33,621 nucleotides of DNA, taken from positions 1 to 33,621 of the forward strand of contig LOET01000011.1 of assembly GCA_001515985.1 (NCBI GenBank), in the 5' to 3' direction. Below are positions 25,608 to 33,621 of this stretch, piece after piece; the first letter of the stretch is position 1, and every line of letters begins with the position of its first letter. The notes beneath the pieces are model-generated. The model did no database searches, was not told where the DNA came from, and saw only the letters and a list, made by a program, of their open reading frames with translations. The translations under genes and the position numbers were made by a program. This stretch comes from Sphingomonadales bacterium BRH_c3 (lineage in GTDB: Bacteria; Pseudomonadota; Alphaproteobacteria; Sphingomonadales; Sphingomonadaceae).

Positions 25608-28367
25608 TCAGGCTTGTTCGAGCTGCCTTTGGCGCGTGTCACTTGCGGCATAGAGCAGGCGTTGCTCGATTTCGGCGAGCCGGTCTGCCGCGGTAATCTT
25701 GTCGCCGGTCAGATCGGTCACGTAGAAGGTATCAGCCGCGCGCTCGCCGTATGAGGTGATATGCGCGGACTGGACCACAAGATTGCTTTCGAACAGTGCG
25801 CGTGCGAGCCGATTGAGCAATGCCGGGCGGTCCCGCGCATTGACTTCGATGACCGTGAAACGGTTCGAGGCATTGTTGTCATAGGTAACGCGCGGCGCAA
25901 CATCGAAGGTTCCCGCGCGGCTGCGTGGCAGCGGACGCGCCGCCAGCTTTGGCACCAGCTCGATCCGGTTGGCGAGCGCGTCACCGATCGATTTGCGCAG
26001 CCGTTCCAATTGCCCTTCTTCACAGAACGGCATGCCAAGCGGGTCCTGCACCAGGAAATTGTCGACCGCCCAGCCCGACCGCGCGGTATGAATACGCGCG
26101 TCGATGATGTTCGCGCCAGCCAGCGCGATGCCCCCGGCAATACGATAGAACAGGCCGGGGTGGTCGGCGGCGATCACACTGACCAAAGTGGCTCCGCGTT
26201 CCGGGTCGAATTCGCACTCGATCGAAAGGTGTTCCTCGACCAGTCGCGCCGCATCATATTGCACCAGATTGCGCGCGATCATGGCTTCGGGTTCGGCGAT
26301 CCAATAGGAATCGTCGAGCAGCGCACCGACTTCCTCGACCAGATTCGCCTTGTCGCCCAGTAATTCGCGCACAGCCTCGCGCTTTGCCGCCACGCGCTGG
26401 CGGCGCCCCTCGCGCATATGGCCCAGCCGCAGGCGTTCTTGTGCGGCATCGTAAAGCTCGCCCAGCAATTGCCGCTTCCAGCTGTTCCACGTGCCCGGCC
26501 CCACCGCGCGGATATCGACCGCAGTTAGCATCACGAGATTGCGCAGGCGCTCTAGGCTTTGCACTTCGCCCACGAAGTCCTCGATCGTCTTGGGATCGGT
26601 CAGATCGCGCTTGAAGGCGGTCGCGCTCATCAGCAGGTGTTGCCGCACCAGCCAGGCGATGAGATCGGTTTCGTTTTCGCTCAGGCCCAAACGTGGGCAC
26701 AATTCACGCGCGACCTCCGCCCCCAGTACCGAATGATCGCCGCCGCGCCCCTTGGCGATATCGTGCAGCAGCACCGCGACATAAAGCGCACGGCGTGAAT
26801 TGATGCGGTGGATCAGCCGCGCTGAGCACGGATGGTCGGCATTGAGTTCACCCTTCTCGATCCGGCTCAATAGCCCGATGGCGCGGATCGTATGCTCATC
26901 GACGGTGTAGTGATGATACATGTCGAACTGCATCTGCGCATTGACCCGGCCGAAATCGGGTATGAAGCGGCCAAATACCCCCGCTTCGTTCATCCAGCGC
27001 AGCACCGTTTCGGGATCGTTGCGGCCCGCAAGCAACTCGAGGAACAGCGCATTGGCCTGCGGGTCCTCGCGCACATCGGATCTGATCAGCGCGCTGTCGC
27101 GATCAGCCAGGCGCATGGTTTCAGGGTGGATCTCCAGACTGTTGGCTTCAGCCAGCTGGAAGATTTCGATCAGCCGCACCGGATCCTGGCGAAACCAGTC
27201 ATCCGATGGCGCCGCGATCTTGCCGCCAAATACGCGGTAGCCTTTCAGCAGGCGCGATTTCTGCGCCCAGCCGGCAAAGAAGCCCTTGCGCGCCCGCTTG
27301 CCTGCAAATTCATTGTCGAGATGCGAGAGGAACACGCCGGTCAGGCTGCCCACCCGCTTGGCCTGGAGGAAATAGAACTGCATGAAGCGTTCGACCGCGC
27401 TTTTGCCGGGGCGGTCGGCGAAATTCATTCGTGCGGCAACTTCGCGTTGCAAGTCGAAGGTCAGCCGGTCTTCCGGGCGCCCGGTGATGATGTGCATGTG
27501 GCACCGCACCGCCAGCAGGAAGCCCTCGGCGCGGCGGAAGCTGCGGTATTCGGGCCGCGTCAGCAGGCCGACATCGACCAGCTCGGCGGCGCTGCGCACC
27601 CGGTGAATATACTTGCCGATCCAGTACAGCGTCTGCAGATCGCGCAGGCCGCCCTTGCCTTCCTTGATATTGGGCTCGACCACATAACGGCTGTCCCCCA
27701 TCCGTTTATGGCGGGCATTGCGCTCTGCCAGCTTTTCGCTGAGGAATTGCCGCTCGCTGCCCTTGACAACATCGGCCCAGAAACGGGCACTGGCTTCCTC
27801 GTCGAGCTTGCGGTCGCCCCAGATGAACCGGCTTTCGAGCAGCGCAGTGCGGATGGTCAGATCCTCGCGCGCCATGCGGATAGTGTCATCTACAGTGCGG
27901 CTCGAGTGCCCCACTTTCAGGCCCAGGTCCCACAGGTAATAGAGCATTGCCTCAATCACCTGCTCGCACCACGGCGCACGCCTGGTCGGTGTGATAAAGG
28001 CGATATCGACGTCTGAATGAGGCGCCATTTCAGCCCGGCCGTATCCTCCCACCGCCAGGATCGCGAGCCGTTCAGCACGGCTACGATTGGCCACCGGGTA
28101 GACGTGCTCGGTTACGTGATCGTGCACCACGCGCACGATCTGATCGATCAGGAACGATTGCGCGCCGGTGCATTCGTGCCCGGCGGATGGTCTTTCCTCA
28201 AGACGACGGGCTATCTCGGCGCGACCTGTGTCGAGCGCGTCGCGCAGCAGCTTGACGATCTGCGGGCGCGCCTTTTCACCCTTGTCGGAGGCGAGCGCGT
28301 CGATCGCTTCGGCAAGCGCACGGCGATCGATAATCGCCCGCTGGTTTGTGACCTTGGGGGAACTCAA
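25608..28367 (-). CDS. glnD: [protein-PII] uridylyltransferase/uridylyl-removing enzyme
   Basis: 919 aa; nucleotidyltransferase LAVGGYGRAEMAPHSDVDIAF; HD domain VLLHDIAKGRGGDHSVLGAEVA; two C-terminal ACT domains. Confidence 0.97.
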   Translation of the reverse strand: MSSPKVTNQRAIIDRRALAEAIDALASDKGEKARPQIVKLLRDALDTGRAEIARRLEERPSAGHECTGAQSFLIDQIVRVVHDHVTEHVYPVANRSRAERLAILAVGGYGRAEMAPHSDVDIAFITPTRRAPWCEQVIEAMLYYLWDLGLKVGHSSRTVDDTIRMAREDLTIRTALLESRFIWGDRKLDEEASARFWADVVKGSERQFLSEKLAERNARHKRMGDSRYVVEPNIKEGKGGLRDLQTLYWIGKYIHRVRSAAELVDVGLLTRPEYRSFRRAEGFLLAVRCHMHIITGRPEDRLTFDLQREVAARMNFADRPGKSAVERFMQFYFLQAKRVGSLTGVFLSHLDNEFAGKRARKGFFAGWAQKSRLLKGYRVFGGKIAAPSDDWFRQDPVRLIEIFQLAEANSLEIHPETMRLADRDSALIRSDVREDPQANALFLELLAGRNDPETVLRWMNEAGVFGRFIPDFGRVNAQMQFDMYHHYTVDEHTIRAIGLLSRIEKGELNADHPCSARLIHRINSRRALYVAVLLHDIAKGRGGDHSVLGAEVARELCPRLGLSENETDLIAWLVRQHLLMSATAFKRDLTDPKTIEDFVGEVQSLERLRNLVMLTAVDIRAVGPGTWNSWKRQLLGELYDAAQERLRLGHMREGRRQRVAAKREAVRELLGDKANLVEEVGALLDDSYWIAEPEAMIARNLVQYDAARLVEEHLSIECEFDPERGATLVSVIAADHPGLFYRIAGGIALAGANIIDARIHTARSGWAVDNFLVQDPLGMPFCEEGQLERLRKSIGDALANRIELVPKLAARPLPRSRAGTFDVAPRVTYDNNASNRFTVIEVNARDRPALLNRLARALFESNLVVQSAHITSYGERAADTFYVTDLTGDKITAADRLAEIEQRLLYAASDTRQRQLEQA

Positions 28368-28389
28368 GCCGGTTCTCTGCCTCGCTGCT

Positions 28390-28450
28390 AGAGCCTGATC
28401 GTGTGAGATTGAAGCGCTTCGGTTTCGATCTCACACGTGCATCAGGCTCT
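28390..28450. repeat. long intergenic inverted repeat (palindromic element, part A)
   Basis: agagcctgat (28390-28399) pairs with atcaggctct (28441-28450); cgtgtgagat (28400-28409) pairs with atctcacacg (28428-28437); inner 10-bp palindrome gaagcgcttc (28411-28420). Confidence 0.9.
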
Positions 28451-28466
28451 TATCAATATGATGAGA

Positions 28467-28509
28467 CCTTGATTCACGTTTCAGTTGATTCCGCCTGAAA
28501 CGATCAAGG
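28467..28509. repeat. intergenic inverted repeat (palindromic element, part B)
   Basis: ccttgat/atcaagg outer arms (28467-28473, 28503-28509) and cgtttcag/ctgaaacg inner arms (28477-28484, 28495-28502). Confidence 0.9.
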
Positions 28510-28510
28510 C

Positions 28511-30208
28511 CTACGCCGCCGCCTGTTCGGCGGTAAACATGTTGCGCACGGTGCGTTTGTCGATCTTCTGGGTGCCGAGCCGCGGCAGCGCCTTTTCCGA
28601 AACCCAGATGTGATCTGCCAGCGGCACCTTGAACGGGGCGATATGCGCGAGCAGGAATTCGCGCAGTTCGGGCCCGCTCAGGCTGTGCCCCGGTTTGAGA
28701 TAGAACACCGCCGCGGGCACTTCGCCCATTCGCTCGTCGGGAATGCCGAACACCGAACATTCGGCGATCGCATCATGCGCATAGATCGCTTCTTCCACCT
28801 CGATGCAGGTGATGTTTTCGCCGCCGCGGATGATGATGTCCTTCTTGCGGTCAACGATATAGACATAGCCGTCTTCATCGACCCGGCCGAGATCGCCGGT
28901 GCGGAAATACCCGTCGGCGGTAAAGGCCGCTGCGGTTGCTTCCTCATTATTCCAATAGCCGATGAAATTGCACACGGAACGGATCGAGATTTCGCCGATC
29001 TGGCCCTGCGCCAGGGGCTTGCCGGCATCGTCGAGTATCGCCAGATCCACCAGCGGGCGGCTTGGCTTCCCGGTCGAGGAAGGCTTGGCGAGATAGTTTT
29101 CGTTGAAATTGGCGCAGCCAACGCCGTTGGTCTCTGTCAGGCCATAGCCCAGCAGCGGGAAACCGTCGGGGAAGGCTTCCCTGATCTTGCCGACATGATC
29201 AACCGGGCGCGGTGCGCCGCCAGCGGCAAAGCCGGTGCAAGAGCTGATGTCATATTTGTGCCGGTCAGGATGAGTTGCGATTTCATAGCTCATCAGCGGC
29301 ACGCCGGCGAAATAGCTGACCTTCTCCTTGTCCATCAGCCGCAGCGCCTCGCCCGCGTCCCAGCGCGGCATCAGCACCAGCTTGCGGCCGAGCGCGAAGC
29401 TTTGCAGGAACACAGGAACCTCTCCGGTAACGTGGAACAGCGGCACCGCCACCAGCGCGCAGGCCTGAGTGGATGGCGCGTTGCCGATACTATCGAAATA
29501 GGTGAACGCCATCAGCGACTGCATGGCATAGCTGAGCGCACCGCTGACCACGCCGAGGTGATCGGACCATGCCCCTTTGGATTTGCCGGTCGAACCCGAG
29601 GTGTAGAGGATGGTGGCGTAGTCCAGAGGCCCCATTTCGGGGAAACTGGCAGTGGCGGGATCAGCCCACAATTCGCCAAGCCCGCGCGAAGGTTGCTCGT
29701 CATGGTCGAACAGGACGATCCGGGCGCCATGATTGTGCCCGTCGAGCCGCTGGGCGCGCTGGGCATCGGCCAGCAGCAGGCGGCAGCCGACCAGCTCGAT
29801 CTGGTCCGCCAGCTCTTCGCCACTGGAAAATCCATTGAGCAGCGTGGCGCAACCGCCGGCGGCCAATATGCCCATATAGGCGATGATCCAGTTGGCCGAA
29901 TTGCGTGCCGCAATGCCCACGCGGTCGCCGCGTGCGACACCGTGATTGGCAATCAGCCCGGCGGCAACGTGCTGCGCCGCATCCCAGGCCTGGGCAAAGC
30001 TGATCCGGATGTCTCCGTCGATAAGAAATGGCAGGTCGCCATGCTGGTTGCAGTAATGGGCAAAGTAATGGACCAGGCTGGGCGGGGCGTTCTTTAGCGA
30101 AGGCATGTCCACGCCGCCGCGACTGACCGGCACGGTCTCAGCGGGGGCTCCGGCGGCGGTAAGTTTGTCCATGATAGCATCGAGGGCTGTATCAAGATCG
30201 GTGGGCAT
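28511..30208 (-). CDS. AMP-dependent acyl-CoA synthetase/ligase (class I adenylate-forming enzyme)
   Basis: 565 aa; ATILYTSGSTGKSKGAW, GYGLTETNG, GYFRTGDLGRVDEDGYVYIVDRKKDIIIRGGENI. Confidence 0.94.
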   Translation of the reverse strand: MPTDLDTALDAIMDKLTAAGAPAETVPVSRGGVDMPSLKNAPPSLVHYFAHYCNQHGDLPFLIDGDIRISFAQAWDAAQHVAAGLIANHGVARGDRVGIAARNSANWIIAYMGILAAGGCATLLNGFSSGEELADQIELVGCRLLLADAQRAQRLDGHNHGARIVLFDHDEQPSRGLGELWADPATASFPEMGPLDYATILYTSGSTGKSKGAWSDHLGVVSGALSYAMQSLMAFTYFDSIGNAPSTQACALVAVPLFHVTGEVPVFLQSFALGRKLVLMPRWDAGEALRLMDKEKVSYFAGVPLMSYEIATHPDRHKYDISSCTGFAAGGAPRPVDHVGKIREAFPDGFPLLGYGLTETNGVGCANFNENYLAKPSSTGKPSRPLVDLAILDDAGKPLAQGQIGEISIRSVCNFIGYWNNEEATAAAFTADGYFRTGDLGRVDEDGYVYIVDRKKDIIIRGGENITCIEVEEAIYAHDAIAECSVFGIPDERMGEVPAAVFYLKPGHSLSGPELREFLLAHIAPFKVPLADHIWVSEKALPRLGTQKIDKRTVRNMFTAEQAAA

Positions 30209-31356: not shown

Positions 31357-32411
31357 GCGGCGGTGCACGGGCCGATCTGGCGGGCACTTTCCGGCGGCTG
31401 ATCCGCGAAACAGGCCCGATCAGCCTTGCCCAGTATATGGGCGAAAGCAACGCGCACTATTACACCAGCCGCGATCCGTTGGGTGACGCGGGCGATTTCA
31501 TTACCGCGCCTGAAGTAAGCCAGGTATTCGGCGAGCTGATCGGGCTGTGGCTGGCAGACATCTGGGTGCGGGCGGGGCGGCCCGGGCCGGTGCACTATGT
31601 CGAACTGGGCCCCGGACGCGGCACTCTGGCGTCTGACGCGCTGCGCACGGCCGGGCGCTACGGGCTCATCCCGCAGGTGCATTTCGTCGAGGGTTCAGAC
31701 GCCTTGCGGCAAATCCAGCGCGGCACGATTCGCGGAGTGACGCATCACGCCGATGTCACCACCCTGCCAGAAGATGGCCCGCTGCTGATCATCGCCAATG
31801 AATTCTTTGACGCGCTGCCGGTGCGGCAATTGCTGCGCGCCGCAGAGGGCTGGCGCGAGCGGATGGTTGGGCTTGAAGGTGATCGGCTGGTGTTCGTTTA
31901 TGGCGATCGGCCGATGGATGCCGCTGTGCCACAAAGCTGGCGCCATGCAAGCCAGGGCACGGTGATCGAAACGAGCCCAGCAGCGGCAGCGGTGATGAGC
32001 GAGCTTGCCGACCGTCTGGTGGCGCAGGGCGGGGCGGCGCTGATGATCGACTATGGTTCGCGTGAGAGCCGTGCTGGTTCAACACTGCAGGCGATCAAGG
32101 GGCATCAGAAAGTCGATGTCTTTTCGGCCCCCGGCAAGATGGACCTGACCGCGCATGTCGATTTTGAAGTGCTGAGCCATGTCGCGCAGCGCCAGGGCGC
32201 GAATTTGCTGGGGGTTCAGATGCAAGGCGAATGGCTGAGCGCGCTGGGGATCGACATGCGGATGGAGGCGCTCAAACGCCGCGCGCCTGACCAGGCCGAG
32301 AAACTCGCGCGGCAGCACGCCCGCCTGGTCGCGGAAGACCAGATGGGCTTGCTGTTCAAGGTAATGGGTCTGTCCGGCAAGGGCTGGCCTGCCGAAGCAC
32401 CGGGTTTCTAG
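31353..32411 (+). CDS. class I SAM-dependent methyltransferase, MidA/NDUFAF7 (DUF185) family
   Basis: ATG at 31353 overlaps lgt stop (ATGA); SLAQYMGESNAHYYTSRDPLGDAGDFITAPEVSQVFGELIGLWLADIW...VELGPGRGTLASDALR...IIANEFFDALPVRQ. Confidence 0.93.
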   Translation: MSGGARADLAGTFRRLIRETGPISLAQYMGESNAHYYTSRDPLGDAGDFITAPEVSQVFGELIGLWLADIWVRAGRPGPVHYVELGPGRGTLASDALRTAGRYGLIPQVHFVEGSDALRQIQRGTIRGVTHHADVTTLPEDGPLLIIANEFFDALPVRQLLRAAEGWRERMVGLEGDRLVFVYGDRPMDAAVPQSWRHASQGTVIETSPAAAAVMSELADRLVAQGGAALMIDYGSRESRAGSTLQAIKGHQKVDVFSAPGKMDLTAHVDFEVLSHVAQRQGANLLGVQMQGEWLSALGIDMRMEALKRRAPDQAEKLARQHARLVAEDQMGLLFKVMGLSGKGWPAEAPGF

Positions 32412-33621
32412 AGGCCCACCCGCCGCGCAAGCTGGCGCGCGGCTTCGTCGGGCGTCAGCTTTTCCTCGTCGCGGTCGACCGCAAAATTCGCCTCGCGCAT
32501 GGCATCGACGTCGACCGCACCGATCACCGGACGCAATGCATCGATGAATGCGGCGTCTGCGGCACGCCCGGGGCTGGCCAGCAGCACCGCATCATAATTG
32601 GGGAAGGCCTGCCGCTTGTCCTCCAGCACGCGCAGCCGATCTGCGGCGATTCGCCCGTCGGAAGTATAGGCGCCGATCACGTCTGCCTCGCCCGATTGCA
32701 GCGCGTTGTACATGAAGGTGGGGGCAAAATTGCGCTGGCTGGCGAATTTGAGGCCATAGGCATCGCGCACCGCCACCCATTCGGGCCGCTCGAAGAATTC
32801 GGGATCGCCGCCAACGGTCAGCTGCGGGGCAACGCGCGCGAGATCGGCCAGGTCCTCCACGCCGAGCGCCGCCGCGCGATCCTCGCGCATGGCGAAGGCA
32901 TAGGCATTTTCGAACCCCAATCGCCCCAGCACGCGGGTGCCGCTGGCCGCCTGTTCCCATTGCTCGATTTCGGCCAGCATGGTGTCGCGCGGCGGGTTGT
33001 CGCGGCGTTTCATCTGGTTGGTCCAGATAGTGCCAGTATAGTCGACCAGCAGATCGATATCTCCGCTCGAGACTGCGCTATGCGCCACTGCCGAGCCCAG
33101 CCCGTCGCGATATGCAACCCTGTATCCTGCCGCCTCGAGCCGCTGGCCGATCAGCCGGGCGAGCACATATTGTTCGGAAAAGCCCTTTGCGCCGATCAGC
33201 ACGCGGTCACGTTCGCCGCTGCCGAATTGCGCGAAGAGCGCTGCAGCAATGCCCAGCACAACCACGGCAAGCCCGCCCAGCGACAAGCTGCGCCTGCGCT
33301 CGGCCATCCCGCGTTCGATCAGGCCGAGCAAATTGTCCGCCACCAGTGCGAGCCCGGCAGAGGCGATGCAGCCGGCGAGCACCAGTGCCCAGTTCTGCGT
33401 CTGAAGCCCGGCAAAGATCGGATCGCCCAGGCTGGGCTGGCCAATGGTGGTGGCCAGCGTGGCCGCGCCGATGGTCCAGACGCTGGCGGTGCGGATACCC
33501 GCCATGATGAAGGGCGCGGTCAGCGGCGCTTCGACCAGCCGCAGCTTCTGCCAGCCGGTCATCCCCACACCGTCAGCCGCTTCGAGCACGCCCGGGTCGA
33601 GATTGGCCTGCGCGGTCACGG
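32408..33621 (-). CDS. glycine betaine/choline-type ABC transporter permease fused to substrate-binding domain (OpuCB-OpuCC-like); 5' end beyond window
   Basis: Permease tail (LRLVEAPLTAPFIMAGIRTASVWTIGAATLATTIGQPSLGDPIFAGLQ) followed by an OpuAC-type binding domain (VLIGAKGFSEQYVLARLIGQRLEAAGYRV...DIDLLVDYTGTIWTNQMKR...NFAPTFMYNALQSGEADVIGAYTSDGRI). The GTG at 33619 is probably internal. Confidence 0.9.
   Translation of the reverse strand, partial: VTAQANLDPGVLEAADGVGMTGWQKLRLVEAPLTAPFIMAGIRTASVWTIGAATLATTIGQPSLGDPIFAGLQTQNWALVLAGCIASAGLALVADNLLGLIERGMAERRRSLSLGGLAVVVLGIAAALFAQFGSGERDRVLIGAKGFSEQYVLARLIGQRLEAAGYRVAYRDGLGSAVAHSAVSSGDIDLLVDYTGTIWTNQMKRRDNPPRDTMLAEIEQWEQAASGTRVLGRLGFENAYAFAMREDRAAALGVEDLADLARVAPQLTVGGDPEFFERPEWVAVRDAYGLKFASQRNFAPTFMYNALQSGEADVIGAYTSDGRIAADRLRVLEDKRQAFPNYDAVLLASPGRAADAAFIDALRPVIGAVDVDAMREANFAVDRDEEKLTPDEAARQLARRVGL

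Follow-up and report, generated by a model that had tools for sequence, protein, structure and literature searches.

The CcrM-associated intergenic repeats (CIR) of Caulobacter (Chen and Shapiro 2003) are described as elements of ~110 bp with two arms and a linker, with TA at their ends and with conserved GANTC sites exposed at the loop, and in the same description their mobility mechanism is presented as one that needs more information (PMC2229807). These two-arm repeats entered the literature in 2003, and more information on their movement was asked for in a review of 2007. In Streptococcus pneumoniae, the 107-bp RUP is a gene-less element located at TA targets, and IS630-Spn1 has been proposed to move it (PMC2229807). 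A literature search, outside which most subscription papers fell, found no report joining IS630, MITEs and CIR-type alphaproteobacterial repeats. At the locus analyzed here a gene-less mobile element has inserted; the insertion is real and clearly delimited, ordinary in kind and informative on how this class of repeats moves. We consider it likely that the element is one copy of a non-autonomous, gene-less MITE of the IS630/Tc1-mariner type, moved by such machinery.

The spacer between the AMP-ligase gene and glnD

In the window (the whole stretch of 33,621 nt that was analyzed), a gene of the AMP-forming acyl-CoA ligase type (28511-30208, minus strand; NCBIfam matches, with none shown above the curated cut-off) lies upstream of glnD, which encodes a [protein-PII] uridylyltransferase (25608-28367, minus strand; NF003467 at 1278 bits against a cut-off of 959) and starts with a TTG at 28367. 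Elsewhere in the window, one ORF on the minus strand (32408-33619) matches an ABC permease as well as a glycine betaine binding protein, and is apparently a fused transporter component. Two strong hairpins occupy nearly all of the 143 nt between the ligase gene and glnD, and every part that the first-pass annotation had described for them was found where it had been placed. Hairpin A (28390-28450) has arms of 10 bp + 10 bp and an apical part (28410-28427). Its outer pairing joins AGAGCCTGAT (28390-28399) with ATCAGGCTCT (28441-28450; 10/10) and its inner pairing CGTGTGAGAT (28400-28409) with ATCTCACACG (28428-28437; 10/10), with a 3-nt bulge, TGC, at 28438-28440 and a gaagcgcttc palindrome at 28411-28420. 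An AT-rich linker (28451-28466), variable among homologues, leads to hairpin B (28464-28512), which has arms of 10 bp (with one mismatch) + 8 bp. Here CCTTGAT (28467-28473) pairs with ATCAAGG (28503-28509) on the outside, and CGTTTCAG (28477-28484) with CTGAAACG (28495-28502) on the inside. The initial description had missed a 3-nt bulge in hairpin B, TCA, at 28474-28476, so that each hairpin carries one such bulge, in both cases on the arm adjoining the linker. In addition, the composite as a whole is bounded by inverted repeats, its two outer ends matching in opposite orientation (28389-28407 with 28495-28513, 74%).

The predicted fold of the spacer reached -55.6 kcal/mol, against -36.8 +/- 3.9 for shuffled sequences (z -4.8; 0/200 shuffles as good). 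No intrinsic terminator or sigma-70 promoter was matched in the spacer, and a scan of the element against Rfam returned no family at the gathering score.

Copies in other genomes and the empty site

The draft genome of the host (2.5 Mb, 82% complete) contains one copy of the element, and a covariance-model search of 99 other sampled genomes of the same genus found none, in agreement with laxer filters applied to 19 of the 100. The suggestion of a repeat family of the host clade was therefore not borne out at the level of the genus, with one copy in the 100 genomes. The element is single in its own genome, yet homologous copies are present in genomes of other genera. When 151 genomes of the bacterial family were searched by BLAST, full-length copies (71-79%) turned up in several genera, and Hankyongella ginsenosidimutans (G008) had at least five near-identical ones; the A-end pattern occurred in 26 exact copies in the genome of this species, against 0 for the reversed control. 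A pattern scan of public genomes gave at least 119 stretches, for example in Sphingomonas, Sphingobium, Rhizorhabdus, Brevundimonas, Peiella and Hyphomicrobium; the Brevundimonas copies are related ones. In a class-wide sample the covariance model matched 24/337 genomes. Homologues that share both arms and the linker are numerous in Sphingomonas, Hankyongella, Hyphomicrobium and others, where a single genome can have ~100 matches; carriers hold tens to ~100 model matches, with ~100 in, e.g., Sphingomonas cavernae and Hankyongella, counts in which both strands are sometimes included.

We aligned 31 full copies, the window copy among them, and built the covariance model from this alignment, so that the match of the model to 28389-28513 (111 bits, E 2.6e-21) follows by construction. 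In the alignment 97.5% of the cells pair, and 19/45 pairs show compensatory change, values reached by 0/500 shuffles; when the pairing partners were slid, pairing was lost. The proposed check by homologues and covariance model thus recovered full-length copies in other genera and compensatory changes in both hairpins. At least one GANTC site was present in 43/44 full copies and at least two in 40/44. The TA on the B side was not intact in 19/44 full copies, as would be expected of old copies, and also of imprecisely set boundaries.

Several derivative or unusual arrangements were also observed. Two Hankyongella loci (L049 and L051, in G008:C1 near 218244 and 596289) hold head-to-tail tandem copies with one common TA. 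In L052, L055 and the flank of L054, also from Hankyongella, a different module (TAGAGCCTGATGACTTTAGGTTGA...) stands in place of hairpin B or adjoins the element, which suggests that MITE families exchange parts in a mosaic fashion. L031 and L036 (G116) are internal deletion derivatives, in which ATCAAGGTCTAG, B's outer end, comes immediately after hairpin A. Some A or B hairpins stand alone, lack a bulge and have both ends of the outer type (L012 and L026 in G073; G008:C1:1157717, 1408751 and 1554066); these are minimal two-end MITEs of roughly 50-65 bp. At the Brevundimonas and Peiella loci L139, L155, L172 and L191, hairpin A is combined with a different B arm (GGACCGAAATCTGA...CCGATTTCGGTC). 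One copy (L209) lies on a 70% GC stretch in an assembly labelled Pseudanabaena biceps, a cyanobacterium, and is probably alphaproteobacterial contamination.

This distribution bears on the proposal that the element is of the REP/BIME type and moved by a RAYT (TnpA_REP) transposase. Palindromic, intergenic and multi-copy in relatives, with two hairpins and inverted-repeat outer ends that resemble a REPIN, the element has some of the expected features; however, Y1_Tnp (PF01797) was absent from the host, G008, G087, G116, G073 and G141, a set that includes the copy-richest carrier, and with 123 bp and a duplicated TA the unit differs from REPs, which measure 20-40 bp (PMC3733652). A RAYT-moved REP is thus very improbable, and we rejected the association. 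The original view of a dispersed palindromic element of alphaproteobacteria holds in kind, with homologues in many genomes, and loses its REP/RAYT part, as neither the host nor the carriers that match most strongly have a member of the RAYT family.

The order ligase-glnD was kept in all 18 other genomes of the genus that gave the locus; the spacer measures -4 to 76 nt in these genomes and 143 nt in the window, and none of these loci contains the element. Such empty sites decide against reading the element as a conserved leader that regulates glnD in cis, or as a structured RNA of the ligase-glnD operon. The element does adjoin the upstream side of glnD and folds strongly, but with homologues at many other loci, no Rfam match at the gathering score and empty sites in all other genus members examined, this explanation is scarcely credible and was rejected; the element is not conserved only as a syntenic glnD leader.

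In the closest relative (G158, with an 86% identical ligase), a 10-nt spacer without insert follows the TAG stop, and the junction reads ...GCGGCA TAG AGGCCCGCAA TTG. The corresponding junction in the window reads ...GCGGCG TA [G...C] TA GCAGC...TTG. Once the insert and one TA are removed, the window reads ...GCGGCGTAGCAGCG... and lines up with the TAG stop of G158, which indicates that a TAG stop was already there, that the element inserted into its TA and that this TA was duplicated. The element proper extends over 28391-28511 (121 bp without the TAs, 125 bp including them), and its insertion adds 123 bp; one copy of the duplicated target lies at the glnD-side end (28389-28390) and the other at the ligase-side end (28512-28513), where G158 has a single TA at the empty site. 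The ligase TAG (28511-28513, minus strand) consists of the target TA and the first G of the element, and the G158 orthologue has its TAG at the same place with no insert. Judged from this comparison, the first G restored the stop codon of the ligase and the end of the gene was kept undamaged. The earlier placement of part B 1 nt from the ligase stop consequently needs correction, since the unit from TA to TA (28389-28513) overlaps the stop codon; it is also a little longer than first described. The single TA shared by the tandem Hankyongella copies is as expected for the same target rule.

The frame of the terminal TAG was also counted over other copies. In a simple ORF count without curated gene calls, 81 element ends had a clearly dominant long ORF running into them, and the terminal TAG was in frame in 42, with 20 and 19 in the other frames (P 0.0004 against 1/3). 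This excess is consistent with stop codons being sites where insertion is tolerated, or even favoured.

With the insert, the ligase-glnD spacer measures 143 nt instead of ~20 nt, and a joint transcript, if there is one, would gain two strong hairpins. The copy might now act as an mRNA element that insulates or destabilizes this transcript via RNase III or RNase E, a role compatible with a MITE origin. Two long hairpins in a co-directional spacer and the precedent of Correia and ERIC processing (PMC10969869) argue for such a role, whereas the lack of a terminator match and the presence of the copy in one lineage only, with no sign of selection at the site, argue against it, and we regard it as rather doubtful. 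Any effect on glnD mRNA is thus putative, and processing by RNase III or RNase E would be a reasonable expectation by analogy with Correia and ERIC.

Terminal repeats and inner arms

IS630-type transposase matches were present in 37 genomes of the bacterial family; the best loci were taken for an end search, and IS630 ends were located as TA-flanked inverted repeats, with the element itself left out. In most cases these ends start with GAGC or GAGT, and they share a common block near positions 18-25. One IS630 element, L122, has the ends GAGCGTGATC and identical exact borders in four copies. The outer terminal inverted repeat A of the element (GAGCCTGATCGTGTGAGATTGAAGC; 28391-28415, plus strand) agrees with the L122 end at 20/25 positions, and 0/20,000 shuffles were as good. 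With a profile of IS630 ends from which L122 had been left out, repeat A and the outer terminal inverted repeat B (GGCCTTGATCGTTTCAGGCGGAATC; 28487-28511, minus strand) took ranks 1 and 2, respectively, when all 1174 TA sites of the window were scored; across further loci from the host and other members of its genus, 5646 TA sites gave no score as high as either of them. The element hence has terminal inverted repeats like those of the IS630 family; it is short (123 bp), has no transposase gene, and is multi-copy in some genomes, with one copy in the host.

An IS with exactly the ends of the element was sought among the IS630 loci and none was found, L122 being the best. A candidate IS in Hankyongella (341182-343318), with ends of this kind on both sides, had promising spacing and was rejected; the sequence inside its ends is unlike the element and looks like ordinary coding sequence. 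An IS630 transposase gene was detected neither in the host, whose draft is 82% complete, nor in carriers including G087, G073 and G141, nor in 7/12 named carrier genomes, so that no present-day partner was found there.

The missing transposase genes in many carriers are a point in favour of another explanation, in which a CIR-class element is moved by means other than IS630 (e.g., IS5-group transposases or recombination) and the TA ends are coincidental. Some IS5-group elements also use short TA-centred targets. However, the agreement of the 25-nt ends with IS630 ends, in both sequence and spacing, is far greater than expected by chance. A 4-bp duplication of CTAG or YTAR was considered and rejected: the bases flanking the two TAs disagree and vary independently, which does not fit such a target and leaves the TA alone. 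Movement by non-IS630 means is therefore unlikely.

We then used the IS630-end profile to score the arms for the inner block of the IS630 ends. The outer arms fitted this block at offset 0 in 31/31 copies on each side, whereas the inner arms fitted only at +3, in 31/31 copies for A and 29/31 for B. The inner-arm match follows partly from hairpin pairing and is not fully independent of the outer-arm match, so that the offset is the informative part. With the outer arms at native spacing and the inner arms at +3, the element corresponds to four IS-like ends, the inner two of which are out of register. The shift is due to a 3-nt insertion, the bulge of each hairpin; a loose pattern test applied to 25 copies that come from other families of the class found it on both inner arms in 20. 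These 3 nt create GATTC or GAATC, that is, a GANTC site of CcrM. In the window copy the GANTC at the insertion is kept in B, on its inner arm (28471-28475), and lost in A; another GANTC lies in the loop of hairpin B (28487-28491).

Movement of the element and its relation to known repeats

Read as a MITE of the IS630 type, the element has imperfect 25-bp IS630-type terminal inverted repeats as its outer ends, and its mover would be an IS630 transposase with GAGCNTGATC ends. Supplied in trans, such a transposase would have inserted the element at a TA, which was duplicated, and the target here was the TA of the TAG stop of the AMP-ligase. As the element begins with G, the stop codon was rebuilt and the gene end kept. 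Inside the element there are two back-to-back pairs of IS-like ends, forming the two hairpins with the linker between them, and the inner ends are those with a 3-nt insertion between tip and inner repeat block. This +3 spacing may serve as a lock by putting the inner ends out of register for the transposase, so that the composite would move as one unit. Since no IS630 gene was detected in the host and its relatives have no copies, the host copy probably arrived on foreign DNA by horizontal transfer, or was moved by an IS that has since been lost.

At the level of sequence, the clean empty site, the TA duplication and the IS630-like ends provide a specific, testable answer on the movement of this repeat class, and the ends in particular suggest how a poorly understood class may move. 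The spacing of the inner ends suggests a reason why a double-hairpin element stays whole, and the insertion at a stop codon points to how such elements can land harmlessly at gene ends. A wider proposal, which we put forward tentatively, is that CIR-type two-arm repeats might be composite IS630 MITEs made of four IS ends, in which the conserved 3-nt insertion, the one that creates the GANTC methylation site, disables the inner ends and keeps the composite together during movement; CcrM methylation might control this movement and tie it to the cell cycle, with stop-codon TAGs as safe, self-repairing landing sites.

Among known systems, REP/REPIN elements with RAYT are likewise palindromic, dispersed and paired, but the element has no RAYT in its main carriers, is a larger unit and uses a TA target. 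Correia/NEMIS and ERIC share with it a length of 100-200 bp, TA termini, strongly folded transcripts and an intergenic location (PMC2229807); their ends pair in one stem, whereas each half of the element forms its own hairpin. The L122-type IS630, from the same bacterial family, is ~1.05 kb long and TA-bounded and has 25-nt ends that start with GAGC beside the TA; unlike the element it has a transposase, and its ends match at 20/25 positions and are not identical. RUP resembles the element in being gene-less, in its TA targets and in ends that resemble those of IS630-family IS, and differs in its unrelated host and sequence and in not being described as a two-arm composite. On comparison with the published description of CIR1-4, the element is CIR-like rather than a proven CIR. 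The table entry for CIR gives no terminal inverted repeats and no known target duplication, whereas the element has IS630-like ends and a TA duplication. Set against the same published description, the element agrees with CIR in its length of ~110 bp, in its two long inverted repeats as two arms with a linker, in its terminal TA, in its intergenic location and alphaproteobacterial hosts, and in its conserved GANTC sites (28471-28475 and 28487-28491), one of them at a hairpin loop.
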